A stretch of DNA of 64,000 bases from Isoalcanivorax pacificus W11-5. GTDB lineage: Bacteria > Pseudomonadota > Gammaproteobacteria > Pseudomonadales > Alcanivoracaceae. The translations under genes were made by a program, and so were the position numbers. This document shows positions 52,678-58,633 of this stretch, in pieces (position 1 is the first letter of the stretch; each line of letters begins with the position of its first letter). The notes below the pieces were generated by a model, which was not told the origin of the DNA, made no database searches, and saw only the letters and a list, made by a program, of their open reading frames with translations. The stretch covers positions 1,798,001 through 1,862,000 of the forward strand of contig NZ_CP004387.1 of the NCBI RefSeq assembly GCF_000299335.2, written 5' to 3'.

Positions 52678-53694
52678 TCAGGCTTCGTCCATCAGCGGCA
52701 CGTCGCTGCCGTACAACAGCCGGTAATCTCCCGGTGTCAGGCCGGTCCAGCGCTTGAACGCCTTGAACAGCGAACCGGTCTCGGTATAGCCGAGGCGGTT
52801 CGCCACGTCCGGAAAACTCAGGCTGCTGTCGGCCACCAGTTCCCGCGCCAGATGAAAACGCACCTGATCCAGTTGCAGGCGGAAGCTGGTGTGCTGCTGT
52901 TGCAGCCGCCGCTGCAGTGCGCGCACGCTGATGTTCAGCAGGGCCGCGATGCGGCCCTGGTCGGGCGTGCCGTGCACTAACTGGTCGCGGATCAGCGAGG
53001 AAATCTCGTCGGCCAGCACGCGGCTGCGCAACGATGACAGCAGGCGCTGGGTGTCCTGCAGGGCGTCACGCATCCGCACCGGGTCGCCGGTAGGGTTTTT
53101 CACATCCAGCACATGGCGGCTGAAATACAACTCGTCATGCGGCTGGTTGAACTGTACCGGTGCGCCGGCCAGGCGGCTGAACAGTGCTTCGTCCGCCGGC
53201 GGCGGCCGGCGCAGATTGACGCCGATATCCGGTGTCTGGTCGATCCCCAGCAGCACGGCCGCCAGGCGCAGGAAGCCGCTGAGCACGGTATCGGTCTGCT
53301 GCGGATGCACCAGCTCCGGCAGGATCGGCACCATGCGGATGTGGTAGCGCTGCGGGTCGATATGAATTTCCAGCCGTTCGATTTCACTCAGCAGCGGCCA
53401 GAAGTGCTGCACGGTGCGCAGCATCTGCCAGCCGTCGGCGCTGTACAGCACCGCATTCATCACCGGGGCGATGTCGGCGAGCAGAATCTGATGCCCGATA
53501 CGCAGGCCCATGTAGGGATCGTTGAGGCGCTTTTCCGTGTAGCTGTAAAGACGATGAACGATTTCCGCCGACACGCGCTCGGAAGTGGAAATCTCTGTGC
53601 CGGCGGCGGCACTCAGCTCACTCAGTGTAATGCCCTTGTACTGCCAGTAACGCAGATGACTGGCAAGCAGGGCCGGGTGTTTGGTCAGGATCAT
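52678..53694 (-). CDS. AraC family transcriptional regulator
   Basis: A 338-residue protein with an N-terminal arabinose-binding-like sensor domain of the type seen in OruR/ArgR-like regulators (MGLRIGHQILLADIAPV near residue 65). The C-terminus is an AraC helix-turn-helix pair (AALLNISVRALQRRLQQQH and FPDVANRLGYTETGSLFKAFKRWTG, split). It is divergent from the beta-helix lipoprotein gene, with 343 bases between them, so it could control the lipoprotein/cytochrome cluster; this is inference. Convergent with hrpB. Confidence 0.92.
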   Translation of the reverse strand: MILTKHPALLASHLRYWQYKGITLSELSAAAGTEISTSERVSAEIVHRLYSYTEKRLNDPYMGLRIGHQILLADIAPVMNAVLYSADGWQMLRTVQHFWPLLSEIERLEIHIDPQRYHIRMVPILPELVHPQQTDTVLSGFLRLAAVLLGIDQTPDIGVNLRRPPPADEALFSRLAGAPVQFNQPHDELYFSRHVLDVKNPTGDPVRMRDALQDTQRLLSSLRSRVLADEISSLIRDQLVHGTPDQGRIAALLNISVRALQRRLQQQHTSFRLQLDQVRFHLARELVADSSLSFPDVANRLGYTETGSLFKAFKRWTGLTPGDYRLLYGSDVPLMDEA

Positions 53695-54037: not shown

Positions 54038-55477
54038 ATGAACAAGCCTTACCTGGCAGGCGGCCGCGGACGTGTTGCCGCAGTGGTGGCATTGAGTACC
54101 AGCCTGGCGCTGCTGAGCGCCTGTGGTGGCGACAGCAGCAGCCGACGCGGCGGAGGCGGCCCCAGTTTTCCCGCTGATGCCATTTTCCTCGACGCAGAGG
54201 ACCTGACCACCAGCGCGAAAGAGGCACTGATCAATATCGAGTCCGGGGATGTGATCGTGTTTCCCGACGGTGAATTCGCGATTGAGGACACCCTGAGCCT
54301 GATCAACGCCACCGGCGTCAGCAATATCACGCTGCGCGGTTATGGCCGCGAGCGCACGGTGCTGGATTTCAGCGATTCCAGTGGCGGTGACGGCATTTAC
54401 ATCGAGGGCGTCAGCAACGTCACCATCCGCGACCTGACGGTGATCGAGGCAGCCAACAACGCCATCAAGCTCAAGGGGGTCAATGGCATCCACATTCACC
54501 ACACCGGCACCGAGTGGCGCGGCGAACTGAATGAGGAAAACGGGGCCTATGGCCTGTATCCGGTGGAATCGCAAAATATCCTGATTGAGCACAGCTATGT
54601 GCGCGGTTCGGCGGATGCCGGTATCTACGTCGGCCAGTCACAGAACATCGTGGTGCGACATAACGAAGCGGTGGAAAACGTCGCCGGTATCGAAATCGAA
54701 AACTCCACCAACGCCGATGTGTACAGCAACATTGCCCGGGGCAACACCGGTGGCGTGCTGATCTTTGACCTGCCGATCGGCAACGGTATCTACGGCAGCA
54801 CCGTGCGTGTGTTCGACAACGAAGTGTTCAGCAACAACACCGACAACTTTGCCAACCAGAGCAGCAATCCGGCGGGGGTACATATCGTGCCGCCGGGTAC
54901 TGGCGTGATCGTGTTGTCCACCCGTGACGTGGAAATCTATAACAACATGATCGATGACCACGATGGCTCGGCAGTGATTGTCAGCAGCTACATGATTGCT
55001 TCGCAGACGCCGGAAACCTCAGCTATCGCTGACGGCTTCCGCTCCGTGCCGCGGAATGTCTACATACACGACAACAATATCGGTTCTTTCGCCAACGATC
55101 CGCGCGGGGACCTGATGCAAATGGTGATCATGGCCTTTGAGGCATTTGGCGGTATCCCGGCCATTCTCTATGACGGCCTGGGGCAGGCGATTGCCAATGA
55201 TCCTGTTGCCGGTCCTGTCTTCAGTGAGGTGCCTTTCGCCAGCGATGGCAGTGACAACATCTGTGCACAGAACAACGGGGCTGTATCGTTGGGTTACCTC
55301 TATCAGCCAGGCATGACGTTCGACCCCGTTACGATGGACCCGATGCCGGGTATCGGGCAGGGGAACAACAGTCTTATTAATTGCTTCCAGCCGCGCCTGC
55401 CCGCCGCCAGCGCCACCATCAACGGCGTGGAATACGGTTGTGGCATTGATGATAACTCAGCCGCCTGCGCGCTTTGA
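54038..55477 (+). CDS. Parallel beta-helix lipoprotein (partner of diheme cytochrome)
   Basis: A 479-residue lipoprotein: signal peptide with lipobox LLSAC (Cys29), then a short Ser/Gly-rich linker. From ~60 to ~350 there are many right-handed beta-helix rungs (SNITLRGYG, SNVTIRDLTVIEA, NAIKLKGVNGIHIHH, QNILIEHSYVRG, QNIVVRHNEAVEN, ADVYSNIARGN, VRVFDNEVF, VEIYNNMI). Such folds occur in polysaccharide lyases and epimerases, but no catalytic site is obvious. From memory, this matches a family (TIGR03805) that regularly occurs beside a diheme protein family (TIGR03806), function unknown. Two genes of the second kind follow. Confidence 0.88.
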   Translation: MNKPYLAGGRGRVAAVVALSTSLALLSACGGDSSSRRGGGGPSFPADAIFLDAEDLTTSAKEALINIESGDVIVFPDGEFAIEDTLSLINATGVSNITLRGYGRERTVLDFSDSSGGDGIYIEGVSNVTIRDLTVIEAANNAIKLKGVNGIHIHHTGTEWRGELNEENGAYGLYPVESQNILIEHSYVRGSADAGIYVGQSQNIVVRHNEAVENVAGIEIENSTNADVYSNIARGNTGGVLIFDLPIGNGIYGSTVRVFDNEVFSNNTDNFANQSSNPAGVHIVPPGTGVIVLSTRDVEIYNNMIDDHDGSAVIVSSYMIASQTPETSAIADGFRSVPRNVYIHDNNIGSFANDPRGDLMQMVIMAFEAFGGIPAILYDGLGQAIANDPVAGPVFSEVPFASDGSDNICAQNNGAVSLGYLYQPGMTFDPVTMDPMPGIGQGNNSLINCFQPRLPAASATINGVEYGCGIDDNSAACAL

Positions 55478-55499
55478 GCCGACGTACTCATCAGCAGTC

Positions 55500-55521
55500 G
55501 CGGGGCCGGTGACGGCCCCGC
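55500..55521 (+). terminator. Intercistronic GC hairpin
   Basis: An 8-bp perfect stem (GCGGGGCC with GGCCCCGC, loop GGTGAC) between the beta-helix gene and the first diheme gene. There is no T-run, so it may stabilise the upstream message or attenuate rather than terminate. Confidence 0.45.
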
Positions 55522-55539
55522 ATTGACGAGGATATTGCC

Positions 55540-56748
55540 ATGCTTACCAGACTGTTTTCCGTAATGCTGCTTGGCCTGGCCAGCGTTGCCCTGACTGCCT
55601 GTGGAGGCGGTGGGGGTGGCGGCGGTGGTGGTGGTGGATCGGAAGAGCCGCCACCGACCGGGGATGTGTGCAGCGAAGCCAGTGGCGACGAGATCAATCA
55701 CCATGCCTTGATGCAGAAAAACTGCCCGAGGCTGTCCGACTACAACCTGTTTGCCGACGCCGCCAACCCGACCACGGACGCCCACGGCGGTGGCCTGCGT
55801 TATGAACTGACCACGCCACTGTTTACCGACTACACCAGCAAATACCGTTTTGTGTTCCTGCCGGAAGGAGAGAGCGCAACCTATACGGAATCGGAAGTCT
55901 TCGATTTTCCGGTGGGCACGGTGATTACCAAGACATTTTCCCTGCCTGCGGATACCGCACACCGTGGCTTCGAGAACGAAACGCTGCTGGAAACCCGTCT
56001 GCTGATCCACCGCGAAAATGGCTGGGTGGCCATACCCTATGTGTGGAATGAAGCACACACGGACGCGGTACTGAAAGTGGCCGGCGGCCCTATTCCGTCG
56101 ACACTGATCCACAACGGCGAACAGATCGAGTTCAATTACCGCGTGCCGGACACCAACCAGTGTCTGCAATGCCACCAGAAAGACTCCCGAATGAGCCTGA
56201 TTGGGCCAAAAGCCAGATTGCTGAATATGAATGTGGATTACGGGGGTGGACCAGAGAGCCAGCTTCAAGTGTGGATTAACACCGGGAGACTGATTGGTGA
56301 TATACCGGCGGACTTGAGTAGCATTGCCACCATTCCCGCCTATAATGATGAAGACGCAGGACTAGTTGACGGCATGAATGATGAAGTGCTGCTGGATACA
56401 GTCAAAGGTTATCTCGATATAAACTGCGCGCATTGTCACCGACCTGGCGGCAGCGCTAGTACTACTGGCTTGCGTCTTGAATATGACAGACCCTTTGCTG
56501 GCAACGAAAGTGCGCACGGTGTATGTAAAACGCCGACTGCGTACTCTGGTGGTCCGAATTCGCTCAGCTTTGATGTCGTGCCGGGGGATGCCGAGCAGTC
56601 AATCATGCACTTCCGGATGAGCACTAATCAGCCGGGTGATCGCATGCCGGAAATAGGCCGTATGCTGGTGCATCAGGAAGGCGTGGCGCTGATTGAGGCC
56701 TGGATCAACAGATTGGAGTTGCCTTCCTGTACACCTTCTGATCAATGA
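55540..56748 (+). CDS. Diheme c-type cytochrome lipoprotein, SO2930-like (copy 1)
   Basis: A 402-residue lipoprotein with lipobox LTAC (Cys21), followed by twelve consecutive Gly residues (22-33). Two c-type heme motifs are visible: Cys208-LQ-Cys211-His212 in TNQCLQCHQ and Cys296-AH-Cys299-His300 in INCAHCHRPGG. Family blocks include CPRLSDYNLF, LFTDYTSKYRFVFLPEG and FPVGTVITKTFSLP. The protein should be outer-membrane or periplasmic and redox-active; its role is unknown. GAGGA precedes the ATG. Bases ~56180-56650 use more A/T and codons such as AGA, ATA and CTA that neighbouring genes avoid. It overlaps the next gene by four bases. Confidence 0.88.
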   Translation: MLTRLFSVMLLGLASVALTACGGGGGGGGGGGGSEEPPPTGDVCSEASGDEINHHALMQKNCPRLSDYNLFADAANPTTDAHGGGLRYELTTPLFTDYTSKYRFVFLPEGESATYTESEVFDFPVGTVITKTFSLPADTAHRGFENETLLETRLLIHRENGWVAIPYVWNEAHTDAVLKVAGGPIPSTLIHNGEQIEFNYRVPDTNQCLQCHQKDSRMSLIGPKARLLNMNVDYGGGPESQLQVWINTGRLIGDIPADLSSIATIPAYNDEDAGLVDGMNDEVLLDTVKGYLDINCAHCHRPGGSASTTGLRLEYDRPFAGNESAHGVCKTPTAYSGGPNSLSFDVVPGDAEQSIMHFRMSTNQPGDRMPEIGRMLVHQEGVALIEAWINRLELPSCTPSDQ

Positions 56749-57875
56749 AACCCATTATATTTTTCGCGGCTGTCGCGCTGCTGTGGTCATCGCTCTCCGC
56801 CTGCGGAGGGGGCGGTGGCGGCAGTGGCGCCGCTGCACCGCCCCCGTCGCCGAGTGTCTGTGACGCGCAGCAGGACAGTATCAACTGGGCCGCGCTGCGC
56901 GACGCGGATTGTCCCCGGCTGAGTGACTACAACCTGTTCGATGCTGCGGGTGCACCGCGCACGCCAGGGCAGGTGTTCGAGCCGTCCGTAAAGCTGTTTT
57001 CCGATTACACGCTGAAGTACCGGGTGGTGTTCATCCCGCCGGGAGAGCAGGCGCGGTTCGACGCGGAGGAGGCATTTGATTTTCCCGTCGGCTCGGTGAT
57101 CAGCAAGACCTTTTCATTGCCGACGACCACGGCTGGCGACCTGCCGGCCCGTGCGCTGGAAACCCGCTTGATGATCCGCCGTGAGCATGGCTGGAAAGGG
57201 TTGCCCTACGTGTGGGATGAAGACGGCAGCGAAGCCCGCCTGCGCATTGCCGGCGCGCTGTTGCCACAGCAGATACTGCGCGATGCCGTGCAGGTGGATT
57301 TCACCTATCAGGTGCCGGATGCGAACCAGTGCCTCAAATGCCATCGCCGGGGCGAACAGGGCATGCAGCCCATCGGCGTCCGGGCACGTTACCTGAACCA
57401 GGAGATCGACCACCAGGGCAGTGCGGTGAACCAGTTGCGCCTGTGGGCGGATCAGGGGTTGCTGCGCGATGTGCCTGCATCGCTGGAGGGGCTGTTCCGT
57501 GTGCCCGCTGCCGACATGCCGGGTGTGACGCTGGCCGAACAGGCACGCGGTTATCTGGATATCAATTGTTCGCATTGTCATCGGGAAGGCGGCTTTGCCG
57601 GTATTTCCGGCTTGCGCCTGGGCTTTGAGCAGGACCCGACCACGGCGTCCTATGGTATCTGCAAGCAGCCACCGGGTTATGACGGCGGGGCGGAAAACCT
57701 GGCTTATGATATCGTGCCGGGCGATGCGCAGGCGTCCATTCTGCGCTACCGCATGACACAGCTGACCGCGCGGGACATGATGCCACCCGTGGGGCGCAAG
57801 CTGGTGCATGAAGAGGGCGTCGCCCTGATCAGCGCCTGGATCGACAGCCTGCCGCCGCAATCCTGTGACCGCTGA
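56745..57875 (+). CDS. Diheme c-type cytochrome lipoprotein, SO2930-like (copy 2)
   Basis: A 376-residue paralogue of the preceding gene. It has lipobox LSAC (Cys20), a Gly-rich linker, CPRLSDYNLFDAAG, LFSDYTLKYRVVFIPPGEQ and FPVGSVISKTFSLP. Heme motifs are Cys196-LK-Cys199-His200 and Cys275-SH-Cys278-His279. The start overlaps the upstream stop (ATGA), so translation is coupled. Base composition is uniformly GC-rich, unlike the middle of copy 1. The pair looks like an old tandem duplication that now makes two distinct cytochromes. Electron partner unknown. Confidence 0.88.
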   Translation: MKPIIFFAAVALLWSSLSACGGGGGGSGAAAPPPSPSVCDAQQDSINWAALRDADCPRLSDYNLFDAAGAPRTPGQVFEPSVKLFSDYTLKYRVVFIPPGEQARFDAEEAFDFPVGSVISKTFSLPTTTAGDLPARALETRLMIRREHGWKGLPYVWDEDGSEARLRIAGALLPQQILRDAVQVDFTYQVPDANQCLKCHRRGEQGMQPIGVRARYLNQEIDHQGSAVNQLRLWADQGLLRDVPASLEGLFRVPAADMPGVTLAEQARGYLDINCSHCHREGGFAGISGLRLGFEQDPTTASYGICKQPPGYDGGAENLAYDIVPGDAQASILRYRMTQLTARDMMPPVGRKLVHEEGVALISAWIDSLPPQSCDR

Positions 57876-57884
57876 TTCATCACG

Positions 57885-57908
57885 CGCGGCCCGCATGCGT
57901 GGGCCGCG
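57885..57908. terminator. GC-rich hairpin after the diheme genes
   Basis: CGCGGCCC (57885-57892) pairs with GGGCCGCG (57901-57908). It ends the beta-helix/cytochrome operon but lacks a T-run, so termination is only probable. Confidence 0.5.
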
Positions 57909-57982: not shown

Positions 57983-58633
57983 ATGAAGCGAATCCCCGCC
58001 ATCCTGATATTGCTCGCGCTGGTGTTGCTCGGCGCCCTGATTTTTTACCTGGCGCCGGAGCGCGAGGTGGTCGCACCGGATGTGGGGGAGGTGACACCGC
58101 CGCCGGCCGCCGCGCCGGTGTCGCCACCGCCGCCCACGCCGTCTGCGCCGCCGGAGGTGGACATTGCCGCACTGGAAAGCACGCCGGAAATGCGGGCGTA
58201 TCGCGAACGCCAGCAGTTCGAACAGTCGGTGCGTGATTTTTTGGCCGAGGCGGACACCCTGGGCGATGCGGAGCGCGCCGCCCGCGCACAGGTTCTGGTG
58301 GCCCAGGTGGATCGCTATGAACAGGCCGGGCAATTATCCGCCGCTGAAGCCGTGACGTTGCGCCTGGCACTGTTGCGCGAAACGACCGACGACGCCGGGT
58401 ACGCTGCTGCGTCAGAAAGGATCATGGCAGAGTACGCCGAGCGCAGTGAAGCCGCGATGGCCGAGTTCATTGCCAACCAGCCGCCGGCCTTTACCGATTA
58501 CAAGGCCCGCGAGCGAGAGATTGTGCGTGAAGTACAGCAGATGACAGAGTTTCCCGGCGGCATGACCCGGGCGCAGTATCTGCGCCAGCAGTTACAGGCA
58601 GCCAGAGAGGAAAGTTACCGGAGCGTGCGTTAA
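57983..58633 (+). CDS. Membrane-anchored Pro-rich helical protein, 216 aa
   Basis: I do not recognise this protein with certainty. It has an N-terminal membrane helix (ILILLALVLLGALIFYL), a Pro/Ala-rich periplasmic linker (~residues 35-62) and a ~150-residue charged helical domain (YRERQQFEQSVRDFLAEAD, LVAQVDRYEQAGQLSAAEA). The plan of one anchor, Pro-rich spacer and helices recalls lipase or phospholipase accessory proteins, but I see no diagnostic motif. A perfect AGGAGGT (57973-57979) precedes the ATG. It lies between the cytochrome genes and a convergent secreted esterase gene. Confidence 0.8.
   Translation: MKRIPAILILLALVLLGALIFYLAPEREVVAPDVGEVTPPPAAAPVSPPPPTPSAPPEVDIAALESTPEMRAYRERQQFEQSVRDFLAEADTLGDAERAARAQVLVAQVDRYEQAGQLSAAEAVTLRLALLRETTDDAGYAAASERIMAEYAERSEAAMAEFIANQPPAFTDYKAREREIVREVQQMTEFPGGMTRAQYLRQQLQAAREESYRSVR

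Follow-up and report, generated by a model that had tools for sequence, protein, structure and literature searches.

Genes of the locus

The window analyzed here is a 64,000-nucleotide stretch of the Isoalcanivorax pacificus W11-5 genome, and the system in question is a set of three consecutive forward-strand genes encoding a beta-helix protein and two diheme cytochromes. The first gene (54038..55477) encodes a beta-helix protein of 479 amino acids (aa) and family TIGR03805 (383.5 bits against an NCBIfam cut-off of 141.5). The second (55540..56748) and third (56745..57875) encode TIGR03806 diheme cytochromes of 402 aa (C1, 388.4 bits) and 376 aa (C2, 349.6 bits; cut-off 313.3 for both). A preliminary description of this DNA had placed these genes correctly in coordinates, order and strand, and its assignment to the TIGR03805/TIGR03806 family pair proved correct as well, because all three scores exceed the cut-offs. 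As also described, the cytochromes are paralogous (150 of 316 aligned domain positions identical), the stop of C1 overlaps the start of C2 in an ATGA (56745..56748), and each has two CXXCH motifs. These lie at 56161..56175 (residues 208-212) and 56425..56439 (residues 296-300, within a class I cytochrome c-like domain) in C1, and at 57330..57344 and 57567..57581 in C2.

Lipoboxes with the described LSAC, LTAC and LSAC endings are present at Cys29 of the beta-helix protein (LLSAC), Cys21 of C1 (ALTAC) and Cys20 of C2 (SLSAC). This is a motif reading from sequence alone, and it supports the identification of all three proteins as lipoproteins. Under the Lol rule, Gly behind the lipobox Cys marks a lipoprotein for the outer membrane; Gly follows the Cys in all three, which points to that destination.

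Co-occurrence of the beta-helix protein and the diheme cytochrome

The two families had been described as regularly co-occurring, and this was confirmed, far beyond chance, in two partly overlapping genome samples and in a set of named loci. The phylum sample (249 genomes) contains TIGR03805 above cut-off in 24 genomes and TIGR03806 above cut-off in 20. In all 20 of the latter the two families either neighbor each other on the same strand or share a single frame, and an adjacent or fused TIGR03806 match is present in 22 of the 24 genomes with TIGR03805. That match falls under the cut-off in G020 and G434, and G478 and G584 have no partner. Pairing in the class sample (321 genomes) was found in 6/6 TIGR03806 genomes and in 10/12 TIGR03805 genomes, failing in G165 and G301. 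The named loci are the best 80 of 572 located by beta-helix motifs and, judging by name, presumably represent Pseudomonadota, Bacteroidota, Acidobacteriota and Planctomycetota. Beta-helix and cytochrome occur together in 75 of these 80, as fusions in 19 and with the cytochrome directly downstream in 56. A contig end interrupts the downstream cytochrome in L090, and L069 breaks off within the beta-helix.

The duplication of the cytochrome is likewise borne out. Among 46 genomes of the host's family, TIGR03806 is found in 37, in 16 of them above cut-off, and 10 of these 16 carry two stand-alone copies. The I. pacificus genome holds a third copy (L036:6734-9700, about 1136733-1139699), a lipobox protein of 988 aa in which a beta-helix and a diheme domain share one chain; upstream of it lie a DUF1302 gene and a ZIP-like gene whose match narrowly misses the Pfam cut-off. 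Compared with the NCBIfam pair, in which TIGR03806 is the SO2930 family diheme cytochrome, the window genes show the same adjacency of beta-helix and cytochrome, but differ in the duplicated cytochrome and in the fused third copy of the same genome. The NCBIfam descriptions of the two families do not name the cytochrome P460-like fold discussed below. TIGR03806 frames of 968-1314 aa occur in 34 genomes of the host's family, and all 14 whose loci were read hold both parts. An interpretation of the frames of about 1000 aa as fusions to pyrroloquinoline quinone (PQQ) dehydrogenases was rejected: those read in the host's family are beta-helix fusions, and the PQQ forms are found among the longer frames of other genomes. 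The recurrent fusion of beta-helix and cytochrome supports a physical complex.

To place the window cytochromes, a tree of 123 cytochrome domains was reconstructed by a quick method with midpoint rooting and Shimodaira-Hasegawa-like approximate likelihood ratio test (SH-aLRT) support. C2 groups with the stand-alone Shewanella and Ferrimonas cytochromes (17 rows, support 98), and C1 with beta-helix-fused cytochromes of Shewanella, Ferrimonas and one Marinobacter (20 rows, support 82, not starred). The duplication in this tree is thus common to the window, Shewanella and Ferrimonas; the single-copy Alcanivorax cytochromes cluster with Marinobacter instead. Given these placements, the three genes appear to form a single conserved unit that was inherited or transferred together and in which beta-helix and C1 are fused in Shewanella. 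The beta-helix-fused label changes five times on the tree, with at least three changes forced by starred branches, and the PQQ-fused forms group separately with three stand-alone cytochromes (support 99). At L166 (6666-7828), two transposase-like frames (IS3 type, by eye) separate a beta-helix-C1 fusion from its C2 gene.

Predicted likeness of the first heme domain to cytochrome P460

An AlphaFold2 model of C1 has a predicted local distance difference test score of 90.6. The first heme domain (residues about 59-250, 55714..56289) is predicted to adopt the fold of cytochrome P460 and c'-beta and to leave its distal site open. Conservation was tabulated over 121 domains, leaving out the long-branched L048 and L045, in which the Lys and ETR motifs are retained. 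In each C1 CXXCH, the two Cys and the His are identical in 121/121 domains, and the first CXXCH is accompanied by an invariant Lys/Arg/Glu set (K131 and E151 each in 121/121). K131 stands at the column of P460 Lys70 in 96 of the 121 domains, and likewise in hhalign, and is predicted to occupy the place of the heme-crosslinking Lys of P460. Arg103 and Glu151 are predicted candidates for P460 Arg44 and Glu96. Glu151 lies opposite the P460 Glu in permissive hhalign and not in hmmsearch; the distal Glu is missing from one natural P460 (PMC11928373). The alignment used for this comparison covered 26 of 30 P460 loci, the other four having no usable frame.

The likeness to cytochrome P460 of Nitrosomonas europaea (2je2, 8gar) and Methylococcus capsulatus (6hiu) extends over the predicted fold, the Lys at the crosslink position, the place of the CXXCH and the Arg and Glu candidates. 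In the Fe III state these two enzymes have Soret bands at 434-440 nm (N. europaea P460) and 419 nm (McP460) (PMC11928373). On the other hand, TIGR03806 scores below the Pfam cut-off and has an additional cytochrome c domain with an invariant Met, and the window proteins, known here from sequence and models, add a lipobox and a partner beta-helix. PF16694 (cytochrome P460) matches 23 of 59 TIGR03806 members weakly (best E 0.0049), with no C1 row at E 5 and the gathering cut-off not reached. No short intermediates between TIGR03806 and P460 appeared among the best 120 of 1037 proteins in an intermediate search; these were all close relatives (E 1e-63 or lower), and none carried the P460 Pfam accession. 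No credible match for the cytochrome came from PDB sequence searches, and no significant one from Foldseek alone; hhalign in global mode aligned 6 columns only. Cytochrome c'-beta gave a weaker profile match than P460 (22.4 vs 31.5) in fewer rows, and where TIGR03806 has its invariant Lys, the c'-beta proteins in a table of PMC11928373 show Phe or Met.

Two other kinships were not supported. A cytochrome c555 trimer matched at 6.5e-7 in the PDB through three weak repeats around one CXXCH and is not credible, and CCP_MauG (di-heme cytochrome c peroxidase/MauG) gave no C1 row and weak matches in 8/59 members (best E 0.041).

The second heme domain contains the invariant Met, and Met369 of C1 is a candidate axial ligand of heme 2. 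Residue 378 of C1 is His in 98, Asp in 22 and Gln in 1 of the 121 domains. The Asp, found in 6/7 PQQ-fused, 2/24 beta-helix-fused and 14/90 separate rows, was rejected as a mark of the PQQ forms: it occurs in six of the seven PQQ rows but in 16 other rows too.

A possible redox complex and its alternatives

Co-occurrence and fusion, together with the predicted P460 fold and its key residues, make a cell-envelope redox enzyme likely. We propose, with confidence that is about evenly balanced, that the three lipobox proteins form one outer-membrane redox complex in which the P460-like heme is the predicted reactive site. The beta-helix would hold a substrate or polymer, and heme 1 would be the reactive center, oxidizing a small substrate on or close to that polymer; the precedent from P460 is hydroxylamine. 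From heme 1, electrons would reach the His/Met heme 2 and then an acceptor in the envelope. C2 may be a further subunit, either catalytic or relaying electrons.

The chief alternative holds that the diheme protein only transfers electrons and that heme 1 is non-catalytic; the protein would take electrons from a fused or separate dehydrogenase and pass them on, the donor being a GSDH protein elsewhere and the beta-helix or a neighbor here. Such fusions exist: in other gammaproteobacteria a GSDH (PQQ sugar dehydrogenase type) domain precedes the TIGR03806 domain in proteins that range from 720 to over 2200 aa (L037-L046, four of four tested by Pfam, namely L037, L039, L043 and L045, and the other six by eye). 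These proteins carry the same diheme domain, on their C-terminal side, but the N-terminal module is PQQ sugar-dehydrogenase-like instead of a beta-helix. Their existence beside beta-helix fusions shows one diheme module serving two different N-terminal modules. The preliminary description had included neither these PQQ-type fusions nor the fused third copy of the I. pacificus genome nor the predicted P460-like fold. At L053 (1199-5541), moreover, a TonB receptor gene adjoins the pair, followed two genes from the pair by a PQQ dehydrogenase with its own CXXCH. Heme domain 1, however, has no conserved second axial His or Met, a pure relay has no obvious need for its invariant Lys, Arg and Glu at P460 active-site places, and the beta-helix has no known redox cofactor. 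We regard a plain relay as possible but doubtful.

A further alternative places the activity in the beta-helix itself, as a polysaccharide lyase, epimerase or hydrolase that the cytochromes serve or protect. Its closest solved folds are indeed alginate epimerase/lyases, RbmB and polygalacturonases, and Tyr, Asp, Gln, Glu and Asn residues are invariant in its conserved repeats. Part of this conservation stems from the choice of loci, which were located with the motifs at residues 193-200 and 214-221, so that these two stretches are in part conserved by design. In four Bacteroidota loci (L095, L119, L126 and L127) the beta-helix gene has no adjacent diheme cytochrome, and the beta-helix may act alone there. 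Against such an activity, the DPHE stretch of AlgE4, which we take to be catalytic, aligns with YPVE in the window protein, so that the AlgE-type DPHE is absent. Tyr174 is present in 82/82 rows and Val176 in 76/82 (Leu in 6); ten loci were left out of the structure alignments. Set against the alginate C5-epimerase/lyase beta-helix (AlgE4 2pyg, 8jaz) and RbmB, the family has YPV with Glu or Gln behind it at the DPHE stretch in 61/82 rows. The beta-helix is predicted to share its fold with alginate epimerases and polysaccharide lyases but to lack the motif for their catalysis; it would bind a polymer, not cut or epimerize it, and an active enzyme seems improbable. TIGR03805 is mentioned in two papers; in one of them Bcam1339, from a Burkholderia exopolysaccharide cluster, carries this annotation (PMC3584217).

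Neighboring genes

An AraC-type regulator gene (52678..53694, reverse strand; Arabinose_bd, PF12625, 6e-19; HTH_18, PF12833, 3e-17) lies divergently upstream of the beta-helix gene, and a promoter scan called zero sites in the gap between them. Directly 3' of C2, an inverted repeat seen by eye (cgcggccc/gggccgcg, 57885..57908, forward strand) marks a possible end of the operon; it has no T run and is absent from the terminator scan output. Downstream follow a gene that matches PlcR, a phospholipase C accessory protein, below the threshold (57986-58633; TIGR03398, 32.5 bits vs 99.1), and a convergent pectinacetylesterase-family gene (PF03283).

The AraC gene and the esterase had been suggested to belong to the same locus. 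By phmmer over our own gene calls in the 80 loci, this holds in part for the regulator, a relative of which is directly beside the unit in 11/80 loci, and is not supported for the pectinacetylesterase, for which no relative was found at E 1e-3; the PlcR-like gene has none either. In gammaproteobacterial loci, 98 of 150 flanking proteins were scanned with Pfam, and eight further loci were read by eye. HTH_18 was found in 20 of the 98, GDSL lipase in 5, DUF3083 in 4, peptidase S49 in 4 and TonB receptor in 3, and no conserved third partner emerged from this tally (25 of 133 families). A TonB-receptor-like gene adjoins the pair in L051, and cytochrome bd oxidase-like genes lie about 1.2 kb from it in L170 (9946-12353), both by eye.

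Relatives in Shewanella and significance

Shewanella papers count SO_2930/SO_2931 among the outer-membrane cytochromes and describe SO2931 as a diheme lipoprotein (PMC4837345, PMC5357785, PMC12175506), and SO2931 is tabled under Fe/Mn oxide respiration (PMC5955497). One such paper names SO2931 as a possible reducer of 5,5'-dithiobis(2-nitrobenzoic acid) (DTNB). In another, deletion of all outer-membrane cytochrome genes, SO2931 included, cost 95.7% of the cathodic current, against 88.2% for mtrC/omcA alone (PMC5829830). We found in the literature no mention of TIGR03806 and no functional test of the beta-helix/diheme pair, the Fe/Mn oxide table (PMC5955497) being the sole assignment met. A review of P460 proteins (PMC11928373) mentions neither fused, diheme or two-domain forms nor a second heme, PF16694, Shewanella or Alcanivorax. 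From gene order in other Shewanella, we infer that SO_2931 is the beta-helix-cytochrome fusion and SO_2930 the C2-type protein.

A role of the unit as the end point of extracellular electron transfer onto solid or humic acceptors, the assumption made for SO_2931 and in keeping with the listings and the current loss above, nevertheless appears very unlikely: the identity of SO_2930/SO_2931 with TIGR03806 proteins is itself inferred, a wire would be expected to have more than two hemes per chain, no Mtr-type cytochrome occurs in the 25 of 133 flanking families tallied, and the unit is present in Alcanivorax, Marinobacter, Sphingomonadaceae and Caulobacterales, which to our knowledge are not known for such transfer.

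The redox complex proposed here invites a broader reading, which we offer as a speculation with a low chance of holding: TIGR03806 might be a large unrecognized branch of lysine-crosslinked P460-type heme enzymes with a built-in electron-transfer heme, mounted on a polysaccharide-lyase-like beta-helix or a PQQ dehydrogenase; SO_2930/SO_2931 and related proteins would then act at a polymer as P460 enzymes of the cell surface. The TIGR03805/TIGR03806 pair is widespread across several phyla. If heme domain 1 is of the P460 type, a rare crosslinked cofactor of ammonia and methane oxidizers would be common in heterotrophs, and SO_2930/SO_2931 would gain a chemical hypothesis.

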